NCBI RefSeq assembly: GCF_001704635.1
Contig: NZ_MAXF01000035.1
Span: 1 to 64,000, forward strand
DNA length: 64,000 nt
Reading direction: 5' to 3'
From: Streptomyces sparsogenes
GTDB lineage: Bacteria; Actinomycetota; Actinomycetes; Streptomycetales; Streptomycetaceae
The notes below the pieces were generated by a model. That model was not told the DNA's origin. It saw only the letters and a list, made by a program, of their open reading frames with translations, and did not search any database. How positions within the stretch are numbered: the stretch's first letter is position 1; every line of letters begins with the position of its first letter. The position numbers and the translations under genes are program-made. Shown here in pieces: positions 263 to 24,477 of this stretch.

Positions 263-1192
263 CTACCCCAGGGCCCGCTTGAGGAAATCCAGTACGACAT
301 TCGCGTATGCCTCGGGATCGGTCTCGAGGCCGAGCAGGTGTCCGGCGTTCGGCAGGACATGCGTCTCGGCCTGGTCATAGCGCTCCGCGAGCGCGTCCAC
401 CGAGGAGGGCGGCACGATGTCGTCCCGCTCCCCCGACATGAACAGCAGCGGTATCTCGGCGAACTTCCCCGTCGTGGGCGGCGGCCACTGCGCGCGGACC
501 ATGGCGGGCCCCAGCGCACACATGACCCCGGTGACCACCGACCGGGACGGCTCCCCGCCGAGCAGCCCCGGCAGCGGGAACATCCCGGCCTCCAGGGACT
601 TGCGCAGCAGCGGGGGCACGTCGTGGCCGGGGCCGCTGTCGCAGACCAGCGCGTCCACGGAGAAGCCCTCGTGCGTCAGCGCCCACATGGACGAGAAGCA
701 GGAGAAGGTGAAGCCGTAGACGGCGATCCGGGCCGGGCCGTAGCCCAGGCCGCCCCGCAGATGGGAGACGACGGCGGTGATGTCGCTGGCGAACCGGTCG
801 CCGAGGCCGAGCACCGCCCGGTCGACGCTGCTGGCCCCGTGGTTGCGGTGGTCGAACAGGCAGACGGTGTAGCCCGCGTCGTGCAGGAACTTGGCGTGGC
901 CGAGGCTGCGCGTCTTGTCCGTCCCCATGCTGTGCCCGAGGACCACCACCTTCCGCTCCGACCCGGGGCACAGCCAGGCGTGGATGTACTTCCGGGCGGC
1001 GAAGGGGATCCTCAGCTCCGTGCCGGGCAACCCGTGGTCCCGCGGGGACTCGTGCGGCGCCCGGCGGCGCGGATGGAAGGCCCGGTACGCCAGCCAGGCC
1101 CCGTACAAGGGGGCCAGCGGCAGCGCCGCGACCGACAGGGCGCGGGATCTCAGCGCGGAGTTCCGTACCGGCTTCTGCCGTGGCTCGGGCAT
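263..1192 (-). CDS. Alpha/beta hydrolase with Thr at the nucleophile position
   Basis: The 309-residue protein has an alpha/beta-hydrolase fold. Residues about 17-38 are hydrophobic and could be a membrane anchor. LGHSMG (85-90) forms the oxyanion region, Asp257/Asp258 (GERDD) is the acid and His285 (NAGH) the base. The nucleophile elbow reads G160-F-T-F-S164, so the usual Ser is Thr162. The paralogue at 7455-8474 has G-F-S-F-S at the same place. The ATG is chosen because GGAGG lies 8 nt upstream; longer in-frame starts would overlap the upstream gene. It is the last gene before the biotin carboxylase in the polyketide operon. Chain release or an acyl hydrolase role is inferred. If Thr cannot act as nucleophile it may be catalytically dead. 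Confidence 0.85.
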
Positions 1193-1278: not shown

Positions 1279-1995
1279 TCAGCCGCAGCCCCCGGCGTGG
1301 CCGTGGTCCGCGGAGCGGGCGGCGGCGAGGTCCGGGCCGGGCGGCGGCGGGGCCGGCGCGCCCCCGCGCGGCCCGGCGCGGACGGACTCGACGAACGCGG
1401 GCAGCCGGTCCACCCCCCAGAACCGGTCGTAGCCGTGGCGGAAGAACGGGACGCCGAACGCCCCGTCCCGGCCCAGGGCGAGCAGCGCCGCCAGCCCCCG
1501 CCCCTCGCGCAACTCCCGGTCCCCGGCCGCCCCCGCCAGCCGGTCGGCCGGCAGCCCCAGCTCCTCCGCGACGCCGGCGATCACCGCCGGGTCGCAGATG
1601 TCGCGGCCCTCCTGCCAGCGGGCCCGGTAGACGCGCTCGATGTACCGCGGGCCGAGCCCGGCGTCCAGCGCCGGGAAGTACGCCAGGTGGGGCACCTCCC
1701 ACACCGGGTCCTGGTCCACCGGCCAGCGGATGTCCAGCCCGCGGGCGCGGGCGAGGCGCCGTACGTCCTGGAGGATGTAGAGGTGCTTCTCCCGGGACAT
1801 GGGGGTGTACGGGAAGGTCTCGCCGTGCTCGTTCATCAGGCGCTCGCCGTCCGCGTCCGGTTCCCACCACGGGCGCCATTCCACCGCCTGTGCGACATCC
1901 GGATAGCGGTCCATCAGGTCACGGTAGGCGATCCAGCTGTACGGACTGCGGAAATTGAAATAGAAGCGTGCCACCCTGCCGCGCTCCCGGGCCAT
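1279..1995 (-). CDS. DsbA-family / 2-hydroxychromene-2-carboxylate isomerase-like protein
   Basis: The 238-residue protein belongs to the thioredoxin-fold DsbA family, HCCA-isomerase/kappa-GST branch. Its N-terminus FYFNFRSPYSWIAY (11-24) carries the S-P-Y element that replaces the Cys-x-x-Cys of true DsbA, so it should not be a disulfide oxidase. The FGVPFF segment near residue 180 is the conserved cis-Pro region. Members isomerise double bonds or bind glutathione-like thiols. Beside dehydratase and reductase genes, a role in double-bond E/Z isomerisation of a polyene chain is a reasonable inference. An AGGGGGA ribosome binding site supports the start. The Pro/Ala-rich last 30 residues look dispensable. 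Confidence 0.8.
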   Translation of the reverse strand: MARERGRVARFYFNFRSPYSWIAYRDLMDRYPDVAQAVEWRPWWEPDADGERLMNEHGETFPYTPMSREKHLYILQDVRRLARARGLDIRWPVDQDPVWEVPHLAYFPALDAGLGPRYIERVYRARWQEGRDICDPAVIAGVAEELGLPADRLAGAAGDRELREGRGLAALLALGRDGAFGVPFFRHGYDRFWGVDRLPAFVESVRAGPRGGAPAPPPPGPDLAAARSADHGHAGGCG

Positions 1996-2041: not shown

Positions 2042-2785
2042 TCAGATCACGATGCCGCCGTCGATCTCGAACACCGCTCCCGTCACATACTCCGCTCCGA
2101 CCAGGAAGGCCACCATGTCGGCGACCTCCTCCGGGCGGCCGAAGCGGCCGAGCGGAATGCTTCCCGACATCTGCTTCCGCACGCTCTCCGACAGCGTGGC
2201 GGTCATGTCGGTGTCGATGAATCCGGGCGCCACCGCATTGGCCCGGATGCCGTAGCGGCCGACCTCCTTGGCGAGCGACTTGGTGAATCCGATGATCCCC
2301 GCCTTGGACGCCGCGTAATTGCTCTGCGTGGCGTGTCCGTGGACTCCGGCCACCGACGAGATGTTCACGATGCAGCCGGTTTTGCGCTTCATCATCCCGA
2401 AGACCACCGAGCGGCACAGGTGGAACGTGCCGTCCAGGTTGACGTCCATCACCTGCCGCCACTCCTCGTCCTTCATCAGCAGCAGCGGATTGTCCCGGGT
2501 GATGCCCGCCGAGGTGACCGCGACGTCGATGGGGCCCAGCCGCTCCTCGGTGAAGGCGACCAGCTCACGCACCGAGTCGGCGTCCGAGACGTCCGCCCGC
2601 CTGCCGACGACCCGCCCGCCGCCGAGCTGCTCCGCCTCCTTCTCCAGGGCGTGCGCGGCGTCGGGGCAGGACCGGTAGCAGAACGCGACGTCGAAGCCGT
2701 CCCGGGCCAGCCGCAGCACGGTGGCGCGGCCGATGCCGCGCGAGCCGCCGGAGACCAGGGCGACGCGGTTCACGGGGTCGGTCAT
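2042..2785 (-). CDS. FabG-like 3-ketoacyl-ACP reductase (polyketide ketoreductase)
   Basis: This 247-residue short-chain dehydrogenase should reduce the beta-keto group of an ACP-bound chain with NADPH. It has the cofactor loop GGSRGIG (13-19), Asn116, the catalytic Ser143 in NISS, Tyr157 and Lys161 in YAASK, and the FabG-type PGFIDTDMT loop. The ATG is preferred over an upstream GTG at 2797 because GGAGGTGA lies at ideal distance before it, inside the end of the dehydratase gene. It is the only ketoreductase in the locus, so it probably serves every extension cycle. Assignment to the family is firm; its substrate is inferred from context. Confidence 0.93.
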   Translation of the reverse strand: MTDPVNRVALVSGGSRGIGRATVLRLARDGFDVAFCYRSCPDAAHALEKEAEQLGGGRVVGRRADVSDADSVRELVAFTEERLGPIDVAVTSAGITRDNPLLLMKDEEWRQVMDVNLDGTFHLCRSVVFGMMKRKTGCIVNISSVAGVHGHATQSNYAASKAGIIGFTKSLAKEVGRYGIRANAVAPGFIDTDMTATLSESVRKQMSGSIPLGRFGRPEEVADMVAFLVGAEYVTGAVFEIDGGIVI

Positions 2786-2789
2786 CCGG

Positions 2790-3758
2790 TCACTCACCTC
2801 CGGCAGGCGCCGCGGCCGTCAGGTCGGCGGCCGGACGCGTCGTCATCACCATGCGGCCGACCGTCAGGACGGCCTCGCCCCCGGCCCGGCTCTCGCCCTC
2901 GAAGACGAAGGTGTCGCCCACCCGGCGGGTCAGCCGTGCGCGGTGTTCGACCAGGTCGCCGGGGGCGACCGGGCGGGCCGGCCGGGCGTCGGTGATGCCG
3001 CCCAGGAGCATCACCTGGCCGCTGAGCACATCCGGATTCGGCCGGTCGCGGGTCGCCAGCACCGCGGCGACCTGGCACCAGGACTCGACCAGGACCGTCC
3101 ACGGGTAGTGGTGGTCCTGGTCGGTGGCCTTGTCCGGCAGCCCCTCGTACCAGGGCTCATTGCCGCTGACCGCCTTCCAGCCGGTCGCCCGCTCGCCCGG
3201 CACCAGCTCGGTGACCCGGTCGACCAGCAGCATCGGATAGCGGTGCGGCAGCAGCCGCTTGAGCGCGCTCGCCGTGATCGCCACCCGGTGTGCCGGATTC
3301 CCGGGCGGGGCCGAAGGCGCACCGGGGGTCTGGAAGCCTCTGGGGGCCTCGGGGGCCGGCCGCGGCCCGCCGTCGCGGGCGTAGCGCAGCCGTACGAGCG
3401 CGGCGGGCCCGCGCGGGGTGGCCGCGGCCACCCGGCAGCGCCAGGCCCCGTCCTCGCGCGACCAGGTGATCTCGCAGGTCAGCAGGTCGCCGGGGAGGAC
3501 CGGGCCGGTGAACCGGGAGGACTCGACGGCCATCAGCGCCCAGGCCTCGCCCGGTTCGGGGAGGGTGGCCAGGGCGCCGCGGTGGGCGCACTCCACGACA
3601 CACATGCCGGGGAGGACGGGGAAGCCGGGGAAGTGCCCGGCGAACACCCGTTCCGTGGCGTCGATGCGGACCGCGGTCCGGGCCGGGCGCTTGCCCGGGG
3701 ATCCGGGGTCGACGACCTCGACCGCGCCGTCGACCGGGCCGCACGCCGTCGCCGTCAC
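2790..3758 (-). CDS. Double-hotdog FabZ/FabA-like dehydratase
   Basis: This 322-residue protein fuses two hotdog domains, expected to dehydrate beta-hydroxyacyl-ACP. Domain 1 keeps the FabZ signature AGHFPGFPVLPGMCVVE with His42 and Glu56. Domain 2 (from about 168) starts with LLPHRYPMLLVDRVTE, also FabZ-like, but its active-site segment is changed to DQDHHYPWTVLVES, keeping a His and Glu225. About 25 low-complexity residues link them. Highly reducing type II PKSs usually use two separate FabZ-like partners, and here they appear joined. The GTG start lies 1 nt after the ACP stop, with GGGGAAATGAG upstream; an earlier ATG at 3791 would overlap the ACP gene by 32 nt. Confidence 0.88.
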   Translation of the reverse strand: MTATACGPVDGAVEVVDPGSPGKRPARTAVRIDATERVFAGHFPGFPVLPGMCVVECAHRGALATLPEPGEAWALMAVESSRFTGPVLPGDLLTCEITWSREDGAWRCRVAAATPRGPAALVRLRYARDGGPRPAPEAPRGFQTPGAPSAPPGNPAHRVAITASALKRLLPHRYPMLLVDRVTELVPGERATGWKAVSGNEPWYEGLPDKATDQDHHYPWTVLVESWCQVAAVLATRDRPNPDVLSGQVMLLGGITDARPARPVAPGDLVEHRARLTRRVGDTFVFEGESRAGGEAVLTVGRMVMTTRPAADLTAAAPAGGE

Positions 3759-3759
3759 C

Positions 3760-4014
3760 TCATTTCCCCAGCTTCGAGGCCAGCAGGTCATGGACGTTCC
3801 GCAGGCAGGTGATCTCCTTCATCTCCTGCTCCCGCAGCTTCACGGAGTACTTCTTCTCCAGGACGACCATGACCTCCAGGGCCATGAGCGAGTCGACGCC
3901 CAGCTCCTTGACGAAGTCGGCGTCGTCGGTGACGTCCTCCTCCTCGACGTCGAGGACGTCGGCGACGAAGGCGCGCAGCTCCTCCAGGTCCAGGGCGGCG
4001 GCGGTGTCGGCCAT
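3760..4014 (-). CDS. Acyl carrier protein 2
   Basis: This 84-residue acyl carrier protein carries the growing chain on a 4'-phosphopantetheine arm. The attachment site is Ser42 in the motif LGVDSLMALEV, and the surrounding acidic helices (VLDVEEEDVTDDADF) are typical. The start is supported by GAGGAG 8 nt upstream. It lies between the transacylase and the dehydratase, next to the enzymes that load and process the chain. A second, distinct ACP is at the head of the operon, so the two may serve different ketosynthase pairs. Identification is secure; division of labour is unknown. Confidence 0.95.
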   Translation of the reverse strand: MADTAAALDLEELRAFVADVLDVEEEDVTDDADFVKELGVDSLMALEVMVVLEKKYSVKLREQEMKEITCLRNVHDLLASKLGK

Positions 4015-4106: not shown

Positions 4107-5090
4107 TCAGGGGGTTTCGGCGGTCAGCTTGGTGAGGGTGGCGGAGGAGTCGACCGGGACGGTCACCGCGCCCGTGGCGATGCGGCGGATCATCCCCGTC
4201 AGCTGGCGGCCGGGGCCGAGTTCCACGAACCGGGCGCAGCCCAGCTCCTCGGCCAGGGTGCGCACGCAAGCGTCCCAGCGGATCGGGCTGGTGAGCTGGC
4301 GCAGTTCCAGGTCCCGCCATCCGTCGCCGCCGGTGTGGGGGCGGGCGTCCACGTTGGCGACGACGGGCATGTGCTCGGCGGCGAACTCCACGGCGGCCAG
4401 CGCCGCCTTCAGCTCGGCCGCCGCGTCCGCCATGCGCGGGCTGTGGAAGGCGCCGCCGACCGCGAGCGGAATCACCTTGCCGCCGCTCTCCACGGCCGAC
4501 TCGCCGAGCCGGGCCACGCCGTCGGCGGTGCCCGAGACCACGATGGCGCCGGGCGCGTTGATGTTCGCGACCCACAGCTCCTCGCCCGCCTCGCGGGTCC
4601 GCGCGGCCAGCTCCTCCACGGTCTCCTCGTCGAGGCGGACCACCGCGGCCATGGTGCCGGGCGACTTCTCGGCGCACGCGCGCATGGCCCGGCCACGGGC
4701 GGCGACCAGGCGGGCAGTGTCGGCGAGCGAGAGCGCCCCCGAGGCGTACAGCGCCGTGTACTCGCCCAGGCTGTGCCCCGCGCAGGCGGCCACCTCGCCC
4801 AGCACACCGGCGGCGGCCGCCTCGCGGTGGGCGAGCACCTCGGTGGTGAACACGGCGATCTGGGCCAGGTCGGTGCGGCGCATTGTCTCGTCGTCGGCCT
4901 TCAGCAGCAGGTCCTCGACGTCGACGCCGGTGTACTCGGAGATCCCGGCGACCAGCGGCCAGGACTCGGTCTCGCGCCAGGCCTCGCCCATGCCCTGCTT
5001 CTGGGCTCCCTGCCCGGGGAACACCAGCGCGGTGCGCGGCTCCGCCGGGTCGCCGTCCCGCTCCGGTTTCTCCGTGGTCTCGTTCGTCAT
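4107..5090 (-). CDS. Malonyl-CoA:ACP transacylase (FabD family)
   Basis: This 327-residue acyltransferase should load malonyl units onto the carrier proteins. It has the N-terminal FPGQGAQ oxyanion motif (24-30), the nucleophile Ser107 in GHSLGEY, Arg132 in the carboxylate-binding helix and His216 in GGAFHSP. The AFHS form is the one normally seen in malonyl-specific enzymes, whereas methylmalonyl enzymes carry YASH. GAGGAG precedes the ATG at 9 nt. As the only acyltransferase in the locus it probably acts in trans for all ketosynthases. Type II systems often borrow the primary-metabolism enzyme, so a dedicated copy is notable. Confidence 0.93.
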   Translation of the reverse strand: MTNETTEKPERDGDPAEPRTALVFPGQGAQKQGMGEAWRETESWPLVAGISEYTGVDVEDLLLKADDETMRRTDLAQIAVFTTEVLAHREAAAAGVLGEVAACAGHSLGEYTALYASGALSLADTARLVAARGRAMRACAEKSPGTMAAVVRLDEETVEELAARTREAGEELWVANINAPGAIVVSGTADGVARLGESAVESGGKVIPLAVGGAFHSPRMADAAAELKAALAAVEFAAEHMPVVANVDARPHTGGDGWRDLELRQLTSPIRWDACVRTLAEELGCARFVELGPGRQLTGMIRRIATGAVTVPVDSSATLTKLTAETP

Positions 5091-5115: not shown

Positions 5116-6249
5116 TCACGGTTGCGTCGTCGCGTGCGGCCGGGTCCGCAGGAGGGCCGCGCCGACCACGCCGTCCCGGTCGACCGAGGTGACCAGGGCC
5201 GGGCTGCCGGGGGCCGCCTCCCGCCGCTCGGCGAGCGCCAGTACGGCGGCGATCTGGAAGGCCGCCGAGGCGGCGTACGTGTCCCCGATGGAGTCGGCGG
5301 CGGAGACCCGCAGCGGCTCATGGCCGCCGAGGACCTCGGCGAGGGCGGCGCGCTCCGCCTCCCCCTCCGCGCCGGGCGCCTGCGAGTCGGCCACCGCCCA
5401 CAGCCGCCCGGCCTCCGTGCCCGTACGGTCCAGCAGCCGCCGGACCACCTCGGCCAGCACCGTGCGGGCCCGCTCCGGGTCGGCGGCGAAGCCGAACTCG
5501 ACACCCGCGACATCGACCAGGCCGCCCCGGCCGTGCTCGCGCGCGGACTCCTCCGGCTCCAGCAGCCACACCGCCGCGCCCTCGCCGAGCACGGCCGCGG
5601 TGTCGCCGTCGGCGCGGGCGTGCCACTCCAGCCAGGCGCGGGCGGAGGAGAACTCCTCGACGGCCCCGCACAGCACGGTGCCGGCCCGCCCGGCGCGTTG
5701 CAGGCGCAGCGCGTACTGGAGGGTGAGCAGCCCGGTGGCGCGGCCGCCGGCGACGGTGGTGTTGGGGCCCTTGAGCCCGTGCCAGATGGCGGACTGCCCG
5801 GCCGCGCGGTTCATGACGGTGTTGGGGAAGCGGGCCGGGTCCACGAAGAAGGGGCGCTCGCTGACCAGGGAGTCGCGGGTGAAGTCCATGATGGACTGGG
5901 CACTTCCGGTGCTGGTGCCCAGCGCCACGCCGGTGTCCTCGCCGACGCCGGGGAGGCGTTCGCCGGCCGCGTCCCCGTCGGTGAGCAGCCGGCCGAGGGC
6001 GGTGACCGCCAGCCCGGTGGCCCGGTCCATGGAGCGGGTGCCCTTGCGGCCGAGGATCTGCTTGATGTGGAAGTCGGGCACCAGGCAGGCCTCCTGGAAG
6101 GGCACGGACCACTCCTCGGGGTCCAGTGGCCCAGCGGCCCTGCGTCCCGAGCGCAGCCCGGTGGAGAAGTCCGCCCCGTGCAGGCCCAGCGGAGATACGG
6201 CGGCCCAGGCGGAGATGACCGGGCCGCCGGTGGCGGTGGCGTAGACCAT
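5116..6249 (-). CDS. Ketosynthase-like protein without catalytic residues (KS6, chain-length-factor-like)
   Basis: The 377-residue protein has the thiolase fold of a beta-ketoacyl synthase (early VISAWAAVSPLG, central LKGPNTTVAGGRATGLL). Counting seven residues after GPN, the nucleophile Cys is replaced by Arg170. The PHGTGT histidine segment is AVADSQAPG and the GH(S/T) histidine segment is DSIGDTYAAS, so all three catalytic residues are lost. It is therefore probably a non-condensing partner or chain-length-factor-like subunit for one of the active ketosynthases. AAGGAG stands 11 nt before the chosen ATG. It lies directly downstream of the DsrE-family trio and upstream of the transacylase, all on one strand. 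Its partner is unknown. Confidence 0.85.
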   Translation of the reverse strand: MVYATATGGPVISAWAAVSPLGLHGADFSTGLRSGRRAAGPLDPEEWSVPFQEACLVPDFHIKQILGRKGTRSMDRATGLAVTALGRLLTDGDAAGERLPGVGEDTGVALGTSTGSAQSIMDFTRDSLVSERPFFVDPARFPNTVMNRAAGQSAIWHGLKGPNTTVAGGRATGLLTLQYALRLQRAGRAGTVLCGAVEEFSSARAWLEWHARADGDTAAVLGEGAAVWLLEPEESAREHGRGGLVDVAGVEFGFAADPERARTVLAEVVRRLLDRTGTEAGRLWAVADSQAPGAEGEAERAALAEVLGGHEPLRVSAADSIGDTYAASAAFQIAAVLALAERREAAPGSPALVTSVDRDGVVGAALLRTRPHATTQP

Positions 6250-6323: not shown

Positions 6324-6722
6324 TCACAGGAACCACACCTGTTCGTACGAGGGCCAGCGGGCGGCCAGTCCGCCCCCCTCGATGACGCGTACGCCGGGCA
6401 GCAGCCGGTCCGCGGCGGTGCGGCCGAGCGCGGTCAGGTCGGGCTCCTCGACCAGCACGGCCACGCCCGCGGCGAGGGTCTCGCGCAGCGTGGCGCGCGG
6501 GTCGGTGAGGGTGTCCAGGGTGCGCCGGCCGATGCGCAGGGCCGGTTCGTAGTCGGTGTCCAGGGCGTAGCTGGCGGCGAGGCCGCGCAGGGCGAGATCG
6601 GTGCCGCCGCTCTGCCGGTGCAGCTCGACGACCAGGGGCAGCACATCGGCGAACTGCCGCTCGACCGCGCCCCGGTAGGCGCGTTCGATCATCACCAGCC
6701 AGCGGGCCGTCGCCTCGGACAC
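6324..6722 (-). CDS. DsrE/DsrF-family-like protein C (third of trio)
   Basis: The 132-residue protein looks like a divergent DsrE-fold subunit. An opening strand ARWLVMIERAYRG and a helix ADVLPLVVELHRQSGG are followed by a C-terminal half, ETLAAGVAVLVEEPDL and LLPGVRVIEGG, that matches the late beta-alpha-beta part of DsrE/TusB-type proteins. It ends in VWFL, as TusB-like proteins often end in a Trp-containing strand. It contains no cysteine, so it could only be structural in a sulfur relay. The reading frame overlaps the preceding gene. GTG at 6722 is preferred because GGGGG lies 10 nt upstream, but GTG at 6731 is possible. Family assignment is by pattern only and moderately sure. Confidence 0.6.
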   Translation of the reverse strand: MSEATARWLVMIERAYRGAVERQFADVLPLVVELHRQSGGTDLALRGLAASYALDTDYEPALRIGRRTLDTLTDPRATLRETLAAGVAVLVEEPDLTALGRTAADRLLPGVRVIEGGGLAARWPSYEQVWFL

Positions 6723-6724
6723 GG

Positions 6725-7132
6725 TCAGCACACCCCCAGCGTCAGACACTTGTCGGCGGCCGCCACGTGCTCGGCGAACTTGAACAGGGGCCGCCTGCGG
6801 ACCTGCGGGATCTGGTCGGCGGTGCCCCGCTCCTCGGAGCAGAAGGCGCACACGTACCAGTGGAGGCGGTCCGGGTGGTCGGTCAGCAGCTCGCGCACGA
6901 TCCGGGGGGCGGAGGGGTACTCCCGGTCCCAGTCGGCGTAGTTGCGCGGCTTGGTGTCGCCCAGGCCCGCCCAGGTCAGGCGGGTGGCGTCGCCGCAGGC
7001 CCACACCTGCACCCGCGCGCCCCTGTCCAGCAGCGAGGTGGTCAGCCGCAGGGCCGAGCCGACCAGTTCGGTCTGGTGCGGGGCCCCGGAGAGCTGTAAC
7101 AGGACCTCGGTGCGCGGCGGTGTCCAGGCCAT
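6725..7132 (-). CDS. DsrE/TusD-family sulfur-relay-like protein B (Cys-bearing)
   Basis: This 135-residue protein is close to TusD/DsrE in size (about 130 residues) and layout: a first strand EVLLQLSGAP, a long helix, VQVWACGDAT, then WYVCAFCSEERG (92-103) and a last strand KCLTLGVC. In TusD and DsrE the sulfur-accepting Cys lies in a V-C-x5-R-G segment just before a helix; Cys95 here fits that spot, and Cys98, Cys129 and Cys135 are close. It would therefore be the persulfide carrier of the trio. TGATG couples its start to the stop of protein A, and its own stop overlaps protein C. Membership in the DsrE family is likely; a sulfur-transfer role is inferred and untested. Confidence 0.72.
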   Translation of the reverse strand: MAWTPPRTEVLLQLSGAPHQTELVGSALRLTTSLLDRGARVQVWACGDATRLTWAGLGDTKPRNYADWDREYPSAPRIVRELLTDHPDRLHWYVCAFCSEERGTADQIPQVRRRPLFKFAEHVAAADKCLTLGVC

Positions 7133-7458
7133 CAGTGCCACACCGCCCGCGAGCCGGGGGCGAGCAGCCGGTCCGCCACCTCGTCCATGTCCGCCATGCG
7201 GGAGCCGGGCAGCAGATCGCCGGCCACCAGGGCGCGCTGGGCGGCCGAGAAGGTGTCCACCCACAGCTCGCCGCCGCTCCGGAGGAAGGCCGCGACGCCC
7301 TGGGAGGCGCCGGGCAGCGCGGCGGTCACCCCGTTCTCGACGAGGAACAGCACCACGTGGTGGCCGTCCTGGAGCAGCCGCAGCGCGTCGCCGGCGAACC
7401 GCTCGCAGGCGGCCCCGGACTCGGGCCCGCCGCTCTCGACGAGCAGGTGGTCGGTCAT
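7132..7458 (-). CDS. DsrE-family-like protein A
   Basis: This 108-residue protein has a DsrE-type pattern: strand MTDHLLVES, helix with ALRLLQDGHHV, strand VVLFLVENGV, helix, strand GELWVD, and a closing Trp (RAVWH). The L-Q-D-G-H-H-V-V-L-F-L-V-E-N-G-V stretch is very like the second helix-strand unit of DsrE, DsrF and DsrH proteins. It has one Cys (residue 18), not at the DsrE position, so it is more like the TusB/TusC-type partner subunits. ATGA overlaps the end of the preceding hydrolase gene and TGATG joins it to protein B, so these genes are made in step. Function in the pathway is unknown. Confidence 0.65.
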   Translation of the reverse strand: MTDHLLVESGGPESGAACERFAGDALRLLQDGHHVVLFLVENGVTAALPGASQGVAAFLRSGGELWVDTFSAAQRALVAGDLLPGSRMADMDEVADRLLAPGSRAVWH

Positions 7459-8474
7459 ACGGCCCCCGCCCCGCCGGACGCCCCGGACGCGTCGGACACT
7501 ACGGAAGCGTCCGGCACCCCGGACACCTCGGACGCCTCGAACGCCTCGAACGCCTCGGCCAGGAAGCCGAGGACCCGTTTCTCGTACTCCGCCGCGTCGA
7601 ACCGCAGCCCCCTCATGTGCGGGGCGCCGGCCGCCGTCCAGTACTGGGCGCCCGGGTAGTGGCGGGCGGTCCGCTCGACGGTGGCGGGGTCCACGAACGA
7701 GTCGAGGGCGCTGCCGATGAACATCAGCCGGGTGTCGCACCCCGACAGGTCCGGTGGCCAGTCGGTGAGGCTCAGCATCCGCAGCGCGAAGAACGCGAAG
7801 GCGCGCCGGTGGGCGGCGAGGGTGCGCGGCCCGCGCAGCCACCGGGGCAGGGCCTGCCCGCGCAGCGCGGCGAAGTGGCGCAGCCCCGCCGGGACGTCGT
7901 ACGCCGGGCCGCTGTCCGCGATCACCGCGGCCACCGGCACCCGGGAGCGCGGCACCACCTGGAGGGCGGGCCAGGTCGAGAAGGAGAAGCCGAACAGGGC
8001 GAGGGCACCGCCGCGCAGCTCGGGGTCGGCGGCGGTCGCGTACACCACGTCCCGCAGGTCGCTGGTGTAGCGCTCGCCCATGCGGGTGAGCGCCCGGTCG
8101 GCGCCGCTGTCGCCGTGGTTGCGCAGGTCGTACGCGACGACGTGGTGGCCCGCCCGGTGGAGCAGCCGGATGTGGCCGAGCGTCATGGACCTGGTGCGGC
8201 CCATGCCGTGGCAGACGACGACGGTGTGCGGCCCGGCGCCCGGCACCACCCACGCGCGCAGCGGCACGCCGTCGTACGAGGCCACCACGGTCTTGTGGCG
8301 CGTCGGCAGGCCCCGGTCGGCGGGTGTGCGGGCGCGCCCGGTGGGCAGCGGGGGGTGGTAGAGCTGGTACGCGTGCTTGGCCGCACCGGCGATGCCCAGC
8401 AGCGGCGCGGCGGGGGCGGCCAGGGCGCCGGCCGGGCGCCGCGGCGGTGCGTCGCCGGTGTCTGGAGTGGTCAT
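7455..8474 (-). CDS. Alpha/beta hydrolase (paralogue of the hydrolase at 263-1192)
   Basis: The 339-residue alpha/beta hydrolase shares the motif order of the left-end hydrolase, including VVVCHGMGRTRSMTLGH against [18 protein letters not shown] and DLRNHGDSGADRAL against [14 protein letters not shown]. This copy has a regular nucleophile Ser164 in GFSFS, with Asp258 (SALDS) and His286 (GAPH), so it should be active. Residues 20-36 are hydrophobic. The last 35 residues are an acidic Ala/Ser/Glu tail (EAFEAFEAS) encoded by short DNA repeats. It overlaps the DsrE-like protein A gene by ATGA. Release, editing or transfer of an acyl thioester is inferred. Confidence 0.85.
   Translation of the reverse strand: MTTPDTGDAPPRRPAGALAAPAAPLLGIAGAAKHAYQLYHPPLPTGRARTPADRGLPTRHKTVVASYDGVPLRAWVVPGAGPHTVVVCHGMGRTRSMTLGHIRLLHRAGHHVVAYDLRNHGDSGADRALTRMGERYTSDLRDVVYATAADPELRGGALALFGFSFSTWPALQVVPRSRVPVAAVIADSGPAYDVPAGLRHFAALRGQALPRWLRGPRTLAAHRRAFAFFALRMLSLTDWPPDLSGCDTRLMFIGSALDSFVDPATVERTARHYPGAQYWTAAGAPHMRGLRFDAAEYEKRVLGFLAEAFEAFEASEVSGVPDASVVSDASGASGGAGAV
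7481..7560. repeat. Short repeats in the 3' end of the hydrolase gene
   Basis: Imperfect copies of CGGAC(G/A)C and of CGAACGCCT (three in a row near 7535-7556) encode the acidic C-terminal tail of the hydrolase. The units are multiples of three or keep the frame. Confidence 0.6.
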
Positions 8475-8566: not shown

Positions 8567-9379
8567 TCAGGTCGGGTCGTTGGGGGTGAAGGTCAGGTTC
8601 TCGCCGCCGTCGACCCCGATCACATTGCCGGTGATCCAGGACGAGTCGGTGCGCGAGAGCAGCGAGATGGCCTCCGCCACGTCCTCCGGCCGGGTCAGCC
8701 TGCGGTGCGGGTTGAGCCCGCGCGCGTGCCTGGCGAGCCGGTCGCTGTCGGGGATGCGCTCCATGGACGGGGTCGGCGTCACCCCGGCGCGCAGCGCGTT
8801 GACGGCGATGCCGGAGGGGGCGAGCTCCAGGGCGAGCTGGCGCACATGGGACTCCAGGGCGGCCTTGGCGGCGGAGACGGCGCCGTAGCTGGGCATGACC
8901 CGGGCGCCGCCCCCGCTGGTCATCGCGTACACCTTCGCGCCCTCGCGCAGCAGCCCGGCGGTGAACAGGTCCTGCGTCCAGTAGACGAGGGAGTGCGCCA
9001 TGACGTCGAGCGTCATGTTCATCTGGCGGGAGGTCACGCCCTGCTCGGTCTCGGGTGCCACGAAGGGCAGCAGGGTGCCGAAGGCGAGCGAGTGGACCAG
9101 GATCCTCACGCCCGCCCCGCCGGTCAGCTCGGCGAACCGCGGCAGCAGCTCCTCCCGGGTTCTGCCGGAGGCGGCGTTGGCGTTGAAGAAGTGCGCCTGG
9201 ACGCCGTGGGTGCGCATCTCCTCGCGCGCGACGGCGGCCTTCTCCTGCCCGTCGGTGGTGTCGAAGTGGACGCCCAGGATGTTGACGCCCTCGCGCGCCA
9301 GCTCGTGGGCGGTGGCCAGGCCCATGCCGCTGGAGGCGCCCAGGATCAGGCACCAGGAACCCTCGAGTGAAGTGATCAT
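8567..9379 (-). CDS. FabI/FabL-like enoyl-ACP reductase
   Basis: The 270-residue short-chain dehydrogenase has the cofactor loop GASSGMG (14-20) and Tyr165 with Lys172. The Tyr-x6-Lys spacing is the mark of FabI/FabL enoyl reductases rather than Tyr-x3-Lys ketoreductases. The end GNVIGVDGGENL fits the same group. It should reduce trans-2-enoyl-ACP to the saturated acyl chain with NAD(P)H. Its presence means that at least some double bonds made by the dehydratase are removed, or that a saturated starter is built. GGAGGG lies upstream of the ATG. The 92-bp gap on its 3' side holds a 14-bp direct repeat (AGGTCGGATCAGGC, twice). Confidence 0.85.
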   Translation of the reverse strand: MITSLEGSWCLILGASSGMGLATAHELAREGVNILGVHFDTTDGQEKAAVAREEMRTHGVQAHFFNANAASGRTREELLPRFAELTGGAGVRILVHSLAFGTLLPFVAPETEQGVTSRQMNMTLDVMAHSLVYWTQDLFTAGLLREGAKVYAMTSGGGARVMPSYGAVSAAKAALESHVRQLALELAPSGIAVNALRAGVTPTPSMERIPDSDRLARHARGLNPHRRLTRPEDVAEAISLLSRTDSSWITGNVIGVDGGENLTFTPNDPT

Positions 9380-9386
9380 CAGCCGT

Positions 9387-10475
9387 TCACCCTCCGCCTT
9401 CTTCCGCTCGTGCTGCGGCTTGTCGCTCGGCTCGTGCTGCGGCTCGCGTTCCGGCTCGCGTCTCGGACTGTGCTGCGGCTTCTCGCTCGGCTCGCGTCTC
9501 GGACCGTGCCGCGGCTTGTGCCGCGGCCTGTGTCCCTGCTCGGCCGGCCGGGGTGACCAGGCACACCGCGGCGTTCCCCTCCGCCGCCGCGGTGACCACC
9601 ACCCGGGCCGGGCCCGCCCCGCCCGCCAGGGCGGCGGCGACCCGCGCCACCGGCTCCAGGCAGCCGGCGCCCGCGGGCACGTGCTCGGTCCGCTCCCCCA
9701 GCGCCGCCGCCACCGCCCGGCCCACCGGGGAGCCGTCCAGCACGGCCGTGACCGGCGGCGGGCCGTCCGGCGCGGGCGACCCGGCCGGGTGGCCGAGGGC
9801 GTCGAGCGCATCCTCGATCAGCGCCCGGGCGCGCTCCGCGCCGCCCTCGGAGGCGGCCAGGGCGGGCGGCAGGAAGAACGAGCGGACCGCCACCGTGCCG
9901 TACGCCCGCCCGCCCCGGGCCGCGACGGCCGCCGCCGGCTCCAGCACCAGGGCGACCGCCCCGGCCTCGGAGGTGTCCGCCCCCGGCTCTCCCTCGGCCA
10001 GCGCCTGCTCGGTGGCCCCGGCCAGCAGCCGGCGGGCCCGGCCGGCGGCGAGGGCGCGCCCGCCGTTCTGGAGCGCTTCGAGACCGGCGACCCGGGGGCT
10101 GGTGAAGGTGAGGTTGAAGCCCTTGAGATGGTGCTCGGTGGCCAGCCGGCTGCCGAAGAGGTTGATCGAGAAGTACGGCGCGGTGGCCGGGCTCAGCTCG
10201 GCGGCGCCGGTCTCGATGACCGTACGGTCCATCGCGTCGTGCAGCGAGGCGGCCGCGCTGTTGGTGCCGACCGCGGCGGCGCGGCGCTCCGGGTCGACCG
10301 CCTCCAGGCTCCGCGGACCAGCGTCGGCCAGGGCCCGTTTGGCGGCGGCGAGGAAGAACTGGGAGGCGGGGGGCAGGTACTTGTAGCCGCGCGGGCCGAG
10401 CGCGGTCCTGAAGTCGAAGCCCTCGGCGCGCACCGTCCCGACGCCCGACACCACCAGATTCACGCCTGGGTTCAC
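9387..10475 (-). CDS. Ketosynthase-like protein without catalytic residues (KS5, chain-length-factor-like)
   Basis: The 362-residue protein has a thiolase fold of the ketosynthase family, but the nucleophile segment is KGFNLTFTSPRVAGLEAL, placing Arg128 where Cys is expected. The HGTGT and GH(T/S)G histidines are also absent (DGSPVGRA and GAGCLEPV). It starts with GTG inside the stop codon of KS4 (GTGA overlap), so KS4 and KS5 are made together and probably form one KS-CLF heterodimer. The last 50 residues are Ala/Arg/Glu/Thr repeats (SETRAEREAAAQSETRAG) encoded by tandem DNA repeats, and look like a recent extension. A non-condensing, chain-length-setting role is inferred from known KS-CLF pairs. 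Confidence 0.85.
   Translation of the reverse strand: MNPGVNLVVSGVGTVRAEGFDFRTALGPRGYKYLPPASQFFLAAAKRALADAGPRSLEAVDPERRAAAVGTNSAAASLHDAMDRTVIETGAAELSPATAPYFSINLFGSRLATEHHLKGFNLTFTSPRVAGLEALQNGGRALAAGRARRLLAGATEQALAEGEPGADTSEAGAVALVLEPAAAVAARGGRAYGTVAVRSFFLPPALAASEGGAERARALIEDALDALGHPAGSPAPDGPPPVTAVLDGSPVGRAVAAALGERTEHVPAGAGCLEPVARVAAALAGGAGPARVVVTAAAEGNAAVCLVTPAGRAGTQAAAQAAARSETRAEREAAAQSETRAGTRAAARAERQAAARAEEGGG
9405..9535. repeat. Tandem repeats at the 3' end of the KS5 gene
   Basis: Imperfect units built on CTCGGCTCG and TGCTGCGGCT follow each other for about 130 bp and encode the Ala/Arg/Glu/Ser-rich tail of KS5. The frame stays open. Confidence 0.75.
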
Positions 10476-11777
10476 GCCGCCGCCCCCTGGAGCACCAGCG
10501 AGACGTTGTTGCCCCCGAACGCGTAGGCGTTGACCAGGCCGTAGGGGGCGGTCACGGGGGTGGGCGCGGTGGGCAGCGGCGCCTCGCACTCCGGGTCCAG
10601 GGCGCCCACCGGCACGTTCGGCGGGAGCGTCCCGTGGTGCAGCACCAGCGCGGCGGCCAGCGCCGCGAACGCGCCCGCCGCGCCGCCGGTGTGGCCGAGG
10701 AGCGCCTTGAGGCTGTAGAGCGGGGTGAGCGGGGCCGCCGCGCCGAGCACCGCGGCCAGCGTCCTGACCTCCACCACGTCGTTCAGCTCGGTCCCGGTGC
10801 CGTGCGGCACGACGAACCCGAGCCGCCCCGCCTCGGCGCCGCCCGGGACCGCCCCGGGCCCCGTAGCCGCCCCCGCCGTCCCCGGGTCCGGGAGCGCCCC
10901 CGCCTCCCGCAGGGCCTCGCGCATCGCGCGCTCGATCTGCGCGCCGCCGGGCTCGGGCGCGGTCGCGTGGTGGGCGTCGCAGCTCCAACCGGTGCCCGCC
11001 AGGCGCGCGTACACCGTCTTCACGCCCCGCCGGCGCGCGTGCTCCGCCGATTCGAGGACGAGGACGGCGGCGCCCTCCCCGAAGACCGTCCCGCGCCGGT
11101 CGGCGGCGAACGGGCGGCACCGCTCGGGGTCGATCGCGCCCAGCCGGTTGAAGCAGGCCAGCCCCACCCGCGAGTACGCCTCGCTGCCGCCGGCCACCAC
11201 CACGTCCGCCTCCCCCGAGCGGATCAGGTCGGCGGCGAGGGACAGCGCGTAGCCGCTGGCCGCGCAGGCGTTGCTGAGGCAGGTGTTGGCCCCCTGGGCG
11301 CCCAGCCAGGCGCCGACCGCCGAGGCGACCGGGAAGACGGGCGCCCACCGGTCGGGCCCCGCCGGCCCGCCCGCGCGCCGCCGCTCGTGCAGGTCGGAGT
11401 CGCCCATGCCGCTGCTGACCGCGACGGCCACCCGGCGCGGGTCTACCCCGGCCAGGCCGGTGAGCCCCGCGTCCGCCACCGCCTCCCGCGCCGCCCCGAC
11501 GGCCAGCCGGGACGCGCGGCCCAGCGGCAGCCCGCCCGGCTCCTCGGGCCCGGCCGGCACCTCGGGCCCGGCCGTCGGGCCCGGCCGGCACCTCGGGCCC
11601 GCCCGGCACCTCGGCCTCGGGCACCAGATACATGTGCGGGTGGTCCATGCGCGCCAGCGGGTCGGGCACCCGCACCGGCGCGCTGCGCGCGGCGCGCATG
11701 CCCCGCCACAGGGCGTCCACGCCCGAGCCCACGCAGCTCACCGCGCCCAGGCCGGTGACCAGTACGCCCCCGTCCAT
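10472..11777 (-). pseudogene. Active-type ketosynthase (KS4) interrupted by a frameshift in a tandem repeat
   Basis: The start (ATG at 11777, TGATG overlap with the previous gene) and the first 65 codons, MDGGVLVTGLGAVSCVGSG onward, are in one frame. The rest of the ketosynthase, with Cys in SNACAASG, His in VPHGTGT and His in LLGHTGG, is in another. The switch falls in a tandem repeat where 18-bp units coding E-V-P-A-G-P are broken by one 13-bp unit at 11564-11576. Adding the missing GGTGC would restore one frame of 437 codons. The catalytic triad is complete, so the ancestral protein was a working condensing enzyme, paired by GTGA overlap with KS5. The cause could be a real mutation, slippage variation or a sequence error. 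A GTG at 11560 could start a shortened protein. Confidence 0.8.
11531..11612. repeat. 18-bp tandem repeat with one 13-bp unit, causing the KS4 frameshift
   Basis: Reading the minus strand, units run GAGGTGCCGGGCGGGCCC, GAGGTGCCGGCCGGGCCC, then GACGGCCGGGCCC, then GAGGTGCCGGCCGGGCCC and a partial GAGGAGCCGGGCGGG. The third unit is 5 bp short, which changes the frame. Confidence 0.9.
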
Positions 11778-13756
11778 CAGCTGCCGTCCGGCTTCCCGCC
11801 GAGCGCGTCCAGCACCCGCCGGTCGAAGGGGACCAGGTGCCAGTCGCGGCGGTTCTCGATCAGCGCGTAGCCGTGCACGATCCGGCCGGTCGCGGTGAGG
11901 GCGAGCCTGCCGTCGCGGACCACGTAACAGTCCATGCGGGAGGTGTAGGTGAAGTTCTTGTAGATCTCCTCCACGGTGTAGACCGTGTAGAGGTCCTCCT
12001 CCATCAGCGCCTCGTCGACGATGTCGATCACCGAGTGCGGCACGACGGGGATCCACTGGCGCTCGTCGAGCAGCGTCTTGATGGAGATGCCCCGGTCCCG
12101 CACGAAGCGGTCCTTGGCCTCCTCCATGAGCCGCAGATAGCCGTCCATCTGGAGGCGCTCGGTGAAGTGGCAGGAGGGGTAGGAGATGTTCCACTTCCAG
12201 GCGTGGGCGTTGCGGCCCTCGGTCAGGGCGGCCAGCACCGCCGCCTCGTCCCCGCCCGCCGCCGGTGCGGCGTCCGCAGTCGGTGCCGCGTCCGCCGCCG
12301 CCCGGGCCGCCCCCGCCGCTCCTTCCCCGTGGGCGCCGAGCCGGCCGACGGTGAAGCGGGTCAGCTCCCCGGGGATCTCGGTGGGCAGCCCCAGATAGGT
12401 GTCCGTACGCAGCGACACCCGCACCTTGGAGGTGACGGCCTTGAGGGTGGAGCCGCCGCGGTCGACCCGGAGGGTCACCTTGAAGCCGAGGGTGTCGTCG
12501 TCGGGCGAGGTGTCCGGCACCACCTCCGCCTCGGCCTCGTCGTCCAGGTGGAACGCGTGCAGGATGCGGCTGTCCAGGCCGACGACGTCCAGGCCCAGGC
12601 CGTACTCCTCGTACAGCAGCCGGGCCGGCATGCCGCAGTGCGCGAAGTGGATCAGCACGGCCTCTTCCACGAGGTAGTTGACGTGCTTGAAGCCGATCCA
12701 GGTGCAGATGTTGGAGCCCTCGTAGCGGGGGCGCAGCCGCACCGTGGTGGTGTCGGCGAGCAGGGCCTTGGTCAACGTCGGCTCGACCGCAGCTGTCATC
12801 AGATGTACTCCATCGAGGGAAGGGGGGTCGCCCGGCCGGGGGCACCGGGCGGCGGTGGTGCGGGGGCCGGGCGCGCGGGGTCCCGCCGGGCGCGCGGCGT
12901 CGCGGACACGCCCCAGGAAGCCGCCCACCGCGTCCGAGAACTCCGCCGCGCGCTCGACCATCGGGAAGTGGCCGGCGCCGGTGAGGACGCGCAGGTCGGC
13001 GTGGGGCAGCGCCCGTGCGAGCCGCTCGGCCTCGGCCGCCGGGGCGGCCTCGTCCCGCTCCCCGGCGACGATCAGGAACGGGGTCCGCAGATCCTCGACG
13101 GGCAGCCGCGGGGTGTCCAGATACATCGTGAAGAAGCTCAGCCAGCCGTACGGGCCGACGCAGTCGCGGACCTTCAGCGCCATCTGGTGGCGCAGTTCGG
13201 GCGGCAGCCGGTCGCCGGCACCGACCCGCAGGCCCTCTTCCAGCATCCGGTCGAACTGGTTGACGTAGTACGAGAGCGTGGCCCAGTCGAAGTCGTCCTC
13301 GCGCGGCCGGTAGAAGGGGGAGACGAGGACGGCCCCGAGGGGGCGACGCGCGGCCTCCCCCGCCCCCGCCCCTGCCTCCGCCTCCGTTTCCGCCTCCGTC
13401 TCCGTCTCCGTCTCCGCCAGCCAGGCGAGCAGCGCGTTCGCGCCGAAGGAGTGGCCGACGACCACATCGGGTCCCCCGGGCACGGCGGCCACGGCCCGCT
13501 CCACCCAGTGGGCGGGCGGCCGGCCCCACCACCTGGGCAGCGCGAAGCCGTTCCAGGGCAGGTCGGCGGCCCACAGCTCGCACGCCGGGTCGGCGAGCGC
13601 GCCCAGGCCCTCCCACACGGAGGCGCCACCGGCCAGCCCGTGCAGCAGCAGCATCCGCGCGGGAGCGCCGTCGGCGGAGGCCGAGGCCGCGGAGGCGACG
13701 GCCGGGCGGATCCGCCGTACGGCTATGGGCGGCTCCTCGGCGTACGGGGGGTTCAC
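11777..13756 (-). CDS. Alpha/beta hydrolase fused in frame to a double-hotdog thioesterase/dehydratase-like protein
   Basis: No stop codon separates two proteins here. Residues 1-285 are an alpha/beta hydrolase with LLLHGLAGG, Ser103 in GHSFG, Asp235 (GERD) and His263 (GAGH). A Pro/Arg-rich linker (286-319) follows. Residues 320-659 hold two hotdog-like halves, one with ICTWIGFKHVNYLVEEAVL and one with SYPSCHFTERLQMDGYLRLMEEAKDRF, as in 4HBT-type acyl thioesterases. Translation may start at GTG 13756 (GTGA overlap with KS3) and give one fusion. It may also restart at ATG 12799, which has its own GGAG, giving a separate 340-residue hotdog protein. The hydrolase carries an acidic Thr/Glu/Ala insert (114-135) encoded by hexanucleotide repeats. 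Thioester hydrolysis or dehydration is inferred. Confidence 0.75.
   Translation of the reverse strand: MNPPYAEEPPIAVRRIRPAVASAASASADGAPARMLLLHGLAGGASVWEGLGALADPACELWAADLPWNGFALPRWWGRPPAHWVERAVAAVPGGPDVVVGHSFGANALLAWLAETETETEAETEAEAGAGAGEAARRPLGAVLVSPFYRPREDDFDWATLSYYVNQFDRMLEEGLRVGAGDRLPPELRHQMALKVRDCVGPYGWLSFFTMYLDTPRLPVEDLRTPFLIVAGERDEAAPAAEAERLARALPHADLRVLTGAGHFPMVERAAEFSDAVGGFLGRVRDAARPAGPRAPGPRTTAARCPRPGDPPSLDGVHLMTAAVEPTLTKALLADTTTVRLRPRYEGSNICTWIGFKHVNYLVEEAVLIHFAHCGMPARLLYEEYGLGLDVVGLDSRILHAFHLDDEAEAEVVPDTSPDDDTLGFKVTLRVDRGGSTLKAVTSKVRVSLRTDTYLGLPTEIPGELTRFTVGRLGAHGEGAAGAARAAADAAPTADAAPAAGGDEAAVLAALTEGRNAHAWKWNISYPSCHFTERLQMDGYLRLMEEAKDRFVRDRGISIKTLLDERQWIPVVPHSVIDIVDEALMEEDLYTVYTVEEIYKNFTYTSRMDCYVVRDGRLALTATGRIVHGYALIENRRDWHLVPFDRRVLDALGGKPDGS
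12797..12812 (-). promoter_or_regulatory. Internal ribosome binding site and ATG for the hotdog part
   Basis: GGAGTACATCTGATG lies inside the long open frame. GGAG is 8 nt before ATG 12799, whose product MTAAVEPTLTKALL begins exactly where the hotdog protein should. This suggests two genes in one frame, or a fusion with internal restart. Confidence 0.6.
13363..13417. repeat. Hexanucleotide repeats in the hydrolase gene
   Basis: A run of (G)TCTCC / CGCCTC units encodes an alternating Glu-Thr and Glu-Ala stretch in a surface loop of the hydrolase, about ten residues after the nucleophile. The length is a multiple of three and the frame is kept. Confidence 0.75.
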
Positions 13757-17407: not shown

Positions 17408-17659
17408 TTACCAGCCGGCCGCTTCGGAGACGACCGTGTAGACGCCCTCGAGGTTGACCATGCGACTGAGTTCCGACTGCGCGATGACGACGTTGAACTC
17501 CTTTTCCAGGGCCGCCAGAATCTCGATGGCGCGCAGTGAATCCGCGTCGTGTTCTTCCTTGAAGAGGCTGGTCTCGGTGACCTCGTCCGGATCTATCTCA
17601 AGGATATCCGTCACGATTTCCTTGATTGTTTCCTGGCGCTCTTCGACGATGGCGGCCAT
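17408..17659 (-). CDS. Acyl carrier protein 1
   Basis: This 83-residue acyl carrier protein has Ser41 in HDADSLRAIEIL as the phosphopantetheine site and the usual early helix ETIKEIVTDILEI. TGGAGGTG lies before the ATG. It is the first gene of the leftward operon, and the 278 bp upstream hold no other gene, so the main promoter of the polyketide operon is probably there, although I could not pick a convincing -10/-35 pair. Together with the second ACP it carries the growing chain between ketosynthases, reductases and dehydratase. Confidence 0.95.
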   Translation of the reverse strand: MAAIVEERQETIKEIVTDILEIDPDEVTETSLFKEEHDADSLRAIEILAALEKEFNVVIAQSELSRMVNLEGVYTVVSEAAGW

Positions 17660-23096: not shown

Positions 23097-23528
23097 TCAT
23101 CCGTCCTCCGCGTACCTGGCGAGCCCTTCCACCATGCGCCGCATGAAACGGGTCAGGTACCACCGCCAAAGGGGCCCGGACAGGGGAAGCTTGGGCGCGA
23201 ACCGTGCCGACCAGACGATGTCCGTGCCGCCTTCGCGTGGCTGGGCCAGTTCGACGGAACCCCGATAGAAACGGAACGGCCCGTTCACGTTCTCGTAGAC
23301 GAACCGCCTGTCGGTGACCAGCTCGACGATCCTCTCGTGCGAGACGGCCCGCCCGGTACGGAAGATCCTGGTGTCTCCGGCCTGCTGTGGATCGCCCGGA
23401 TCGCCGACCTCGACCTCAGCGGCGTCGATCGGCGACCACAGGGGCCACGTGCCCGCGCGAACCAGCGCTGAGTACACGACTTCGGGGTTCGCTCCCGAGT
23501 GCGCCGTCACGGAATAGGTGAACGTCAT
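23097..23528 (-). CDS. SRPBCC (START-like) family protein
   Basis: The 143-residue protein has the Bet v1/START-like pattern: opening strand FTYSVTAHSGANPEVVYSAL, TWPLWSPI, a string of beta strands, and a long C-terminal helix (LTRFMRRMVEGLARYAED). Members bind hydrophobic ligands in a cavity; some are polyketide cyclases, most have unknown roles. It lies 60 bp after the AraC regulator gene on the same strand. The ligand cannot be guessed. Confidence 0.82.
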   Translation of the reverse strand: MTFTYSVTAHSGANPEVVYSALVRAGTWPLWSPIDAAEVEVGDPGDPQQAGDTRIFRTGRAVSHERIVELVTDRRFVYENVNGPFRFYRGSVELAQPREGGTDIVWSARFAPKLPLSGPLWRWYLTRFMRRMVEGLARYAEDG

Positions 23529-23588
23529 CCCCCGAACGTAGGACGGCGAGGCCGTACGAGGACATGCGCCGGATTGCCCACCTGGCGA

Positions 23589-24467: not shown

Positions 24468-24477
24468 GGCGGTCCGG

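Follow-up and report, generated by a model that had tools for sequence, protein, structure and literature searches.

Why should a polyketide operon carry three adjacent genes that look like the subunits of a sulfur relay? The question is raised by the first 64,000 nucleotides of contig NZ_MAXF01000035.1 of Streptomyces sparsogenes (assembly GCF_001704635.1; this whole stretch is called the window here), where three consecutive small genes on the minus strand, named T1, T2 and T3 below, lie inside a type II polyketide synthase (PKS) operon. A first-pass annotation of this DNA likened the trio to TusBCD/DsrEFH and proposed that the locus may build sulfur into its product or use a persulfide intermediate. 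As an alternative it suggested that the trio had been reused for another reaction on the chain bound to the acyl carrier protein (ACP), and it is this alternative that the evidence supports. The trio is quite likely the 6-pi electrocyclase, a complex that closes the ring in a highly reducing type II PKS of the cinnamoyl-lipid kind, and is orthologous to Kcn17-Kcn18-Kcn19 of the kitacinnamycin (kcn) cluster. Very probably, then, the fold of a sulfur relay has been reused for the formation of a carbon ring, with its sulfur-handling cysteine still invariant.

The three genes are closely packed, with overlaps of 1–7 bases, as the first pass had seen. The hydrolase gene ahead of the trio and T1 overlap in ATGA, T1 and T2 share one base in TGATG, and the overlap of T2 and T3 is 7 bases with a T3 start at GTG 6731 and nil with one at GTG 6722. 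Another 74 bases separate T3 from a gene for a protein resembling a chain length factor (CLF), given an ATG start of the latter at 6249. The order T1-T2-T3 is kept in 120 of 122 loci, the two others (L012 and L083, apparently one place) being cut by a contig end. Some places are represented more than once among the 122 loci, having entered from two collections; the distinct T2 proteins number 100, among them those of the window and of Paraburkholderia.

The relationship to the DsrE family becomes visible in the orthologue sets and in the predicted folds rather than in a profile search of the window proteins themselves. Against Pfam DsrE (PF02635), T1 reaches 17.2 bits (E 0.0059) and T2 15.8 bits (E 0.017), both below the gathering score of 22.7, and T3 gives no match. 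The similarity is nevertheless accepted because the orthologues match: at E<=0.05, DsrE is matched by 27 of 37 T1 orthologues (and DsrH by 10 of the 37), by 21 of 51 for T2 and by 7 of 50 for T3. An NCBIfam search of T1-T3 gave no match, and single-sequence searches of PDB with T2 and T1 gave nothing useful, profiles being required. Even the profile matches to PDB are weak throughout, those of T3 being mixed with chance ones. The T1 profile matches DsrH (E 0.017), YchN (0.022), DsrF (0.18) and TusB (0.34), each weak on its own, and it is by sequence profile only that T1 is likened to DsrH/DsrE. For T2 and T3, AlphaFold2 models (mean predicted local distance difference test score, pLDDT, 92.8 and 86.4) predict folds of the DsrEFH/TusBCD/YchN type. 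In Foldseek searches of PDB the best matches of T2 are YchN (1jx7, 3.0e-7) and DsrE (2hy5_A, 1.1e-6), and T3 is closest to YchN (5.7e-5), followed by ST0148, MTH1491 and DsrEFH chains. VIA-align gives T2 a Z of 15.6 with DsrE (root-mean-square deviation, rmsd, 2.0 over 116 aligned residues), 14.8 with YchN and 14.7 with 2d1p_A (a TusBCD chain, TusD judging by its length), and T3 a Z of 14.1 with YchN (rmsd 2.3, 113 aligned) and 12.8 with DsrF 2hy5_B (rmsd 2.2, 115 aligned). Beyond the DsrE-like group, Z falls to 6.2 for T2, and for T3 to 7.7 (Tm0979) and next 4.7. Profile comparison with the E. coli Tus proteins gave 68% probability over 23 columns for TusB, 23% over 31 columns for TusD and 1% for TusC. 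These alignments are short or weak, and a one-to-one equivalence of subunits with Tus is therefore not established. Within the trio, T3 and T1 match profile against profile with 95% probability, T2 and T1 with 2%.

What such a trio may do is suggested by the kitacinnamycin system, where Kcn17-Kcn18-Kcn19 are stated to catalyse the 6-pi electrocyclisation that forms the benzene ring (PMC9321520). The first pass was aware of no polyketide system described with such a set, a claim that falls if the two sets are equated by gene order. The kcn cluster has its ketosynthase (KS) in Kcn7, its ketoreductase (KR) in Kcn14, a type II PKS set in kcn4-kcn15 plus kcn33, nonribosomal peptide synthetases (NRPSs) in Kcn21-23 with a terminal thioesterase (TE) in Kcn23, a P450 in Kcn27 and a glycosyltransferase in Kcn28 (PMC6510318), and Kcn4 is the ACP (PMC9321520). 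A cluster from another genus of the same family (G418) can be counted along these anchors. With its ACP counted as 4, KSc (a third ketosynthase homologue) comes at 7, the KR at 14, a DsbA-like protein at 15 and an ABC1-kinase-like membrane protein at 16. T3-T2-T1 follow on the opposite strand at 17-18-19, with a small protein at 20 and three NRPSs at 21-23, in which condensation and adenylation domains are found in all three pieces tested and a thioesterase ends the third. A 332-aa protein at 24, two ATP-binding cassette (ABC) genes at 25-26, a P450 at 27, a glycosyltransferase at 28 and a second DsbA at 33 complete the series. The cluster fits anchors 4, 7, 14, 15, 21-23, 27, 28 and 33. Its trio stands at places 17-19 of a kcn-ordered cluster, and therefore Kcn17-18-19 very probably correspond to T3-T2-T1, by gene order and not by sequence. 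The second DsbA-like gene of G418 (L172, 14519-15172), in the place of kcn33, lies far from the PKS core. Clusters that carry the trio internally do not yield the kcn numbers: with the ACP at 4, the KR falls at 17 (L088 type) or 11 (L102 type), and a fit is reached only with G418.

The window itself has the order ACP KS CLF KSc ABH/TE KS2 CLF2 KR2 hyd2 T1 T2 T3 CLFx AT ACP2 DH/DH KR DsbA hyd1, where ABH is an alpha/beta hydrolase, AT an acyltransferase, DH a dehydratase and CLFx the CLF-like protein next to T3. This order agrees with GlaD-GlaV of the gla cluster of S. globisporus C-1027, and the trio falls on N-O-P. For gla, ACPs are assigned to D and R, KS/CLF pairs to E-Q, F-G and J-K, DHs to S and T, the KR to U and an isomerase to V (PMC9381841). 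Judged by its genes, the window operon belongs with the highly reducing type II PKSs of the cinnamoyl type, whose gene set is known from the clusters described in PMC6510318 and PMC9381841. The first pass was right in seeing a trio with a DsrEFH/TusBCD-like fold within an operon for a type II polyketide.

In such a pathway, KS/CLF pairs, the KR and the dehydratases would build an ACP-bound polyene, as is known for the family, and the DsbA-like isomerase would turn one double bond Z, an activity reported for its homologue YsfG, a glutathione-dependent cis-trans isomerase (PMC9381841). T1-T3 would probably assemble as a heterohexamer, like the alpha2beta2gamma2 complexes DsrEFH and TusBCD, hold the folded Z-polyenyl-ACP and close it to a cyclohexadiene, the step reported for Kcn17-19. 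Later oxidation would give an ortho-disubstituted benzene, and no sulfur would be handed to the product. No ring-aromatising flavin adenine dinucleotide (FAD) oxidoreductase was identified in the window, where the cluster runs into the contig start; ten loci among L026-L125, of which nine carry the trio, hold a candidate for this step (a FAD oxidoreductase, E<=1e-60).

The distribution of the trio is in line with a role in this PKS type. Of 295 genomes of the genus, 22 have a T2 homologue; across the family the count is 23 of 297 genomes, spread over 5 of the 17 genera sampled (the window genome is counted in both). T2 is also found in 74 loci of named contigs, with Streptomyces, Saccharothrix, Lentzea, Actinokineospora, Nocardia, Streptosporangium, Planosporangium and Actinoplanes among them; this set was found with one peptide pattern, which misses more distant T2. 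The first pass had proposed a search for the trio beside ketosynthases; KS-like genes are present in 71 of the 73 loci of at least 16 kb, together with an ACP in 66, a dehydratase in 65, a KR in 58 and a DsbA homologue in 56. Counted by distinct T2 DNA (67 genes in these 73 loci), the figures are 65, 61, 60, 53 and 51. The DsbA homologue (E<=1e-30) is found in 58 of the 295 genus genomes, and these include all 22 trio genomes (Fisher p 6.5e-18, with genomes treated as independent); 36 of the 58 have no T2. Pairwise divergence of T2 correlates with that of KS (r 0.77, Mantel p 0.001), CLFx (0.82), DsbA (0.78) and T3 (0.85), in a test that took only the 50 clusters holding all seven genes.

Several points weigh against an electrocyclase. 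The activity of Kcn17-19 is known here second-hand, from one sentence in a citing paper, and the match to kcn is by gene order alone, not by the sequences of the Kcn proteins. Shi et al. 2022 (JACS 144:7939) is reportedly the primary source of the activity. The count in G418 includes a gene, number 24, that the gene caller missed and that was supplied from the plain list of open reading frames (ORFs), and no convincing gene was seen in a 1.2-kb gap before the LuxR gene, where the count to 33 needs one. Two trio loci have no KS genes within reach: L091, which lies beside NRPS-looking and ABC-transporter-looking genes and a LuxR match, and L029, a Paraburkholderia plasmid. It is hard to see what the invariant Cys95 and Cys98 of T2 would do in a purely pericyclic reaction. 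Lastly, no homologue of Kcn17-19 was found in the epoxinnamide cluster, according to PMC9321520, and the trio is missing from other clusters as well. Twenty trio-less DsbA regions were examined, from 19 of the 36 genomes without T2 (mostly those with higher-scoring DsbA matches) and from one further cluster of G096. None of the twenty holds T2 or T3, and T1 is found only in L111. In ten of them KS, CLF, KSc, CLFx, KR and DsbA are all present; ring-type clusters can therefore do without the trio, which is not the sole route to completing such pathways. No gene standing in for the trio where it is lacking (YssX) came to light in an inspection by eye of 7 of the 20 regions (L106-L125).

Some of these regions deserve a note of their own. 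L111 (9985-11545, genome G178) is a cinnamoyl-type cluster that keeps T1 but shows neither T2 nor T3 in the interval from T1 to the CLF-like gene, and its DsbA match has one internal TGA; it may be a decaying cluster or reflect an error of assembly. In L109, L112, L116, L119, L121-L123 and L125, all trio-less, matches to the window queries are limited to ACP, KS, CLFx, KR and DsbA: a PKS of this type, but smaller or more divergent. L101 and L117 each have two sets of KS/CLF-like and ACP genes, with the trio in L101 and none in L117.

The cysteines need a closer look. T2 has five (46, 95, 98, 129 and 135), T1 has Cys18 and T3 has none, and neither T1 nor T3 carries a cysteine at an RG-like place. 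The first pass had noted that T2 stands alone in this respect, which is correct, but its motif V-C-x5-R-G has to be read as C95-x6-R-G, or equally as C98-x3-R-G. Its assignment of Cys95 to the persulfide place of TusD/DsrE survives, the residue standing 7 residues ahead of the R of RG exactly like Cys78 of E. coli TusD, and so does its expectation that Cys95 would be conserved in orthologous loci. Among the places counted, P18, R29, W92, C95, C98 and R102 of T2 are invariant (100 distinct sequences, 122 loci), and W44, C46 and G47 are kept in 99 of the 100. In T1, D24, R75 and H108 are invariant in 37 rows and W107 is kept in 36 of them; in T3, E24 and L48-R49-G50 are invariant in 50 rows. At the place of DsrH Cys20, T1 has Ala25, and Ala in 36 of 37 rows, by a weak profile alignment (E 0.017). 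Cysteine reaches at most 14 of 37 rows in any column of T1 and 9 of 47 in T3.

It is conceivable, if on the unlikely side, that the trio is a pericyclic-type enzyme with covalent thiol catalysis, in which Cys95/Cys98 and the gained Cys46 would add to or hold the polyenyl-ACP so that it takes up the folded Z geometry before 6-pi closure. If this were true, a machine for sulfur traffic would have become a catalyst of ring formation, with its own sulfur chemistry put to new use. It is improbable that the trio is a thiol-based E/Z isomerase or helper, in which a reversible addition of T2 Cys95 or Cys46 to the polyenyl thioester would precede an unaided closure of the Z-polyene. The invariant C95/C98 and the clade-specific C46 would suit it, complete ring-type clusters without the trio exist, and spontaneous 6-pi closure is possible for a suitable Z-polyene. 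However, every trio genome in the genus sample already owns a DsbA-like protein, homologue of the cis-trans isomerase YsfG, and the published statement gives ring closure to Kcn17-19.

The sulfur relay of the first pass, in which T2 Cys95 would take up persulfide sulfur and hand it onward, leaving sulfur in the product or an intermediate, is very improbable. It has in its favour the DsrE/DsrF/DsrH-type folds, an invariant Cys95 with the spacing of TusD Cys78, an orthologous trio in Methylophaga that follows sulfite reductase genes, and one TusA homologue in the genome. In the DsrEFH of Allochromatium vinosum, DsrE-Cys78 binds sulfur and DsrH-Cys20 is essential (PMC3397948). The relay is nonetheless unlikely on several counts. 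The DsrC/TusE acceptor (PF04358) has no match in the window genome (275 contigs, 100% complete), with a positive control in E. coli, and searches of that genome for other DsrE and TusA genes gave one match each. No sulfur donor or carrier is among the 20 PKS-region proteins scanned (0-19 kb, with some small ORFs outside the scan), and the DsrH Cys20 place is Ala in nearly all T1 rows. The related alkenoyl units are described without sulfur: the propenyl-cinnamoyl unit of kcn (PMC6510318) and the ortho-methylphenyl alkenoic acids of gla (globisporamic acid; PMC9381841). As the pathway is of a type in which the probable counterparts of the trio are reported to close a benzene ring, its product is probably free of sulfur. 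Least probable of all is a non-catalytic scaffold arranging KS/CLF pairs and ACPs around a spontaneous ring closure: the trio often adjoins a CLF-like gene and the divergence of T2 follows that of CLFx, but the strictly kept polar and cysteine residues exceed the needs of a scaffold and Kcn17-19 are reported as an electrocyclase.

The origin of the trio may be glimpsed in two orthologous trios of the same order that have no PKS in the stretch shown, both on plasmids. The one of Paraburkholderia fungorum follows a heavy-metal P-type ATPase, and the one of Methylophaga thalassica (L174, 7656-8803) has genes for a flavodoxin-domain protein and a sulfite reductase hemoprotein subunit immediately ahead of it and one for a cbb3 oxidase subunit behind it; this second trio may be a little-known sulfur-trafficking trio. 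In both, T1 and T2 exceed the Pfam DsrE cut-off and T3 exceeds that of DsrH. The Paraburkholderia trio matches the window one to one, and the Methylophaga trio matches T1 and T2 of the window and T3 of Paraburkholderia. Both retain C95/C98 (C-x2-C-x3-RG) but are without W44, C46 and G47. A Paraburkholderia-type T2 was searched in 396 genomes of the phylum and gave one weak match (L175). The ancestral complex would thus probably have trafficked sulfur, and a trio of this type would have been recruited into a PKS with its Cys pair retained and the W-x-C-G motif gained; with two non-PKS trios, this is only a lead.

The positions of the trio, of the codons discussed and of the other operon genes are collected in the table below. 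The GC content of the window is 73%. Beyond the cluster, three genes lie together on the minus strand (23097-25656): one of a polyketide cyclase/lipid-transport family, one for an AraC-type regulator and one for a GDSL enzyme whose N-terminal domain is SsfX3-like.

Table. Trio genes, selected codons and neighbouring operon genes, in window positions.
Feature	Position	Strand	Remark
T1	7132..7458	-	108 aa, DsrH/DsrE-like subunit; Ala25 at the DsrH Cys20 place
T2	6725..7132	-	135 aa, DsrE/YchN-like subunit with invariant Cys pair
T3	6324..6731	-	135 aa, DsrF/DsrH/YchN-like subunit; later start at 6722 possible
Codon of T2 Cys95	6848..6850	-	TusD/DsrE Cys78 spacing to RG; 100/100 distinct T2
Codon of T2 Cys98	6839..6841	-	100/100 distinct T2; YchN shares C-x2-C-x3-RG
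Codon of T2 Cys46	6995..6997	-	in W44-x-C46-G47-x2-T50; 99/100 distinct T2; not in the two non-PKS trios
hyd1, alpha/beta hydrolase	263..1192	-	final gene ahead of contig end
DsbA-like protein, probable E/Z isomerase	1279..1995	-	place of GlaV
KR, FabG-like ketoreductase	2042..2797	-	
DH/DH, two FabA/FabZ/ApeI-like dehydratase domains, single protein	2790..3758	-	
ACP2, second ACP	3760..4014	-	
AT, FabD-like acyltransferase	4107..5090	-	
CLFx, CLF-like ketosynthase homologue	5116..6249	-	adjoins 3' side of trio in many relatives too
hyd2, alpha/beta hydrolase	7455..8288	-	
KR2, short-chain dehydrogenase/reductase (SDR) family reductase	8567..9379	-	
CLF2, ketosynthase-like	9387..10370	-	start uncertain
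KS2, ketosynthase	10472..11560	-	start uncertain
ABH/TE, alpha/beta hydrolase and thioesterase-like protein, one frame	11777..13654	-	two separate matches in many relatives
KSc, third ketosynthase homologue	13753..14865	-	place of Kcn7
CLF	14895..16109	-	
KS	16136..17371	-	
ACP	17408..17659	-	
LuxR-type regulator	17938..18720	-	

For practical purposes, a false lead towards a sulfur-containing polyketide is removed, and a sequence handle is gained for one sort of cinnamoyl-type cluster: three adjacent DsrE-fold genes, of which the middle one encodes W-x-C-G and C-x2-C-x3-R-G. The trio would be a further member of a known ring-closing complex, and what remains of interest is its DsrE/TusBCD identity together with an invariant cysteine of persulfide type, whose role in an electrocyclase is directly testable. 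Among the matches listed, no literature link between DsrE-family proteins and cinnamoyl polyketides was found, most subscription literature being outside the search, and no claim of priority is made.

Compared with known systems, the trio stands between two kinds of complex. With DsrEFH of A. vinosum and TusBCD of E. coli it shares the predicted folds of T2 and T3, a weak profile of T1, the three adjacent subunits and a T2 cysteine at the spacing of TusD Cys78. It differs from them in its polyketide context, in a genome with no DsrC/TusE match, in a T1 without an equivalent of DsrH Cys20 (E. coli TusB itself is without any cysteine) and in gene order, the DsrH-like T1 coming first in the window where E. 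coli has D-C-B. YchN of E. coli (PDB 1jx7) is the top Foldseek match of both T2 and T3 and has C-x2-C-x3-RG in common with T2; it is encoded by a single gene and is not known to have a defined role. On the polyketide side, the trio falls on GlaN-O-P of gla, which have no stated role in the available part of PMC9381841, and a related cluster, ysf, is that of the youssoufenes. Likened to gla by gene order and not by sequence, the window differs in having an AT gene inside the operon, its dehydratases in a single protein and hydrolase and thioesterase in one frame. Kcn17-Kcn18-Kcn19 likewise come from a row of three small genes in a cluster of the same type, and the orthologous trio of G418 holds an equal place among the kcn anchors. 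In that layout the trio comes after the isomerase and on the opposite strand, whereas the trio of the window lies in the core, between a hydrolase and the CLF-like gene.

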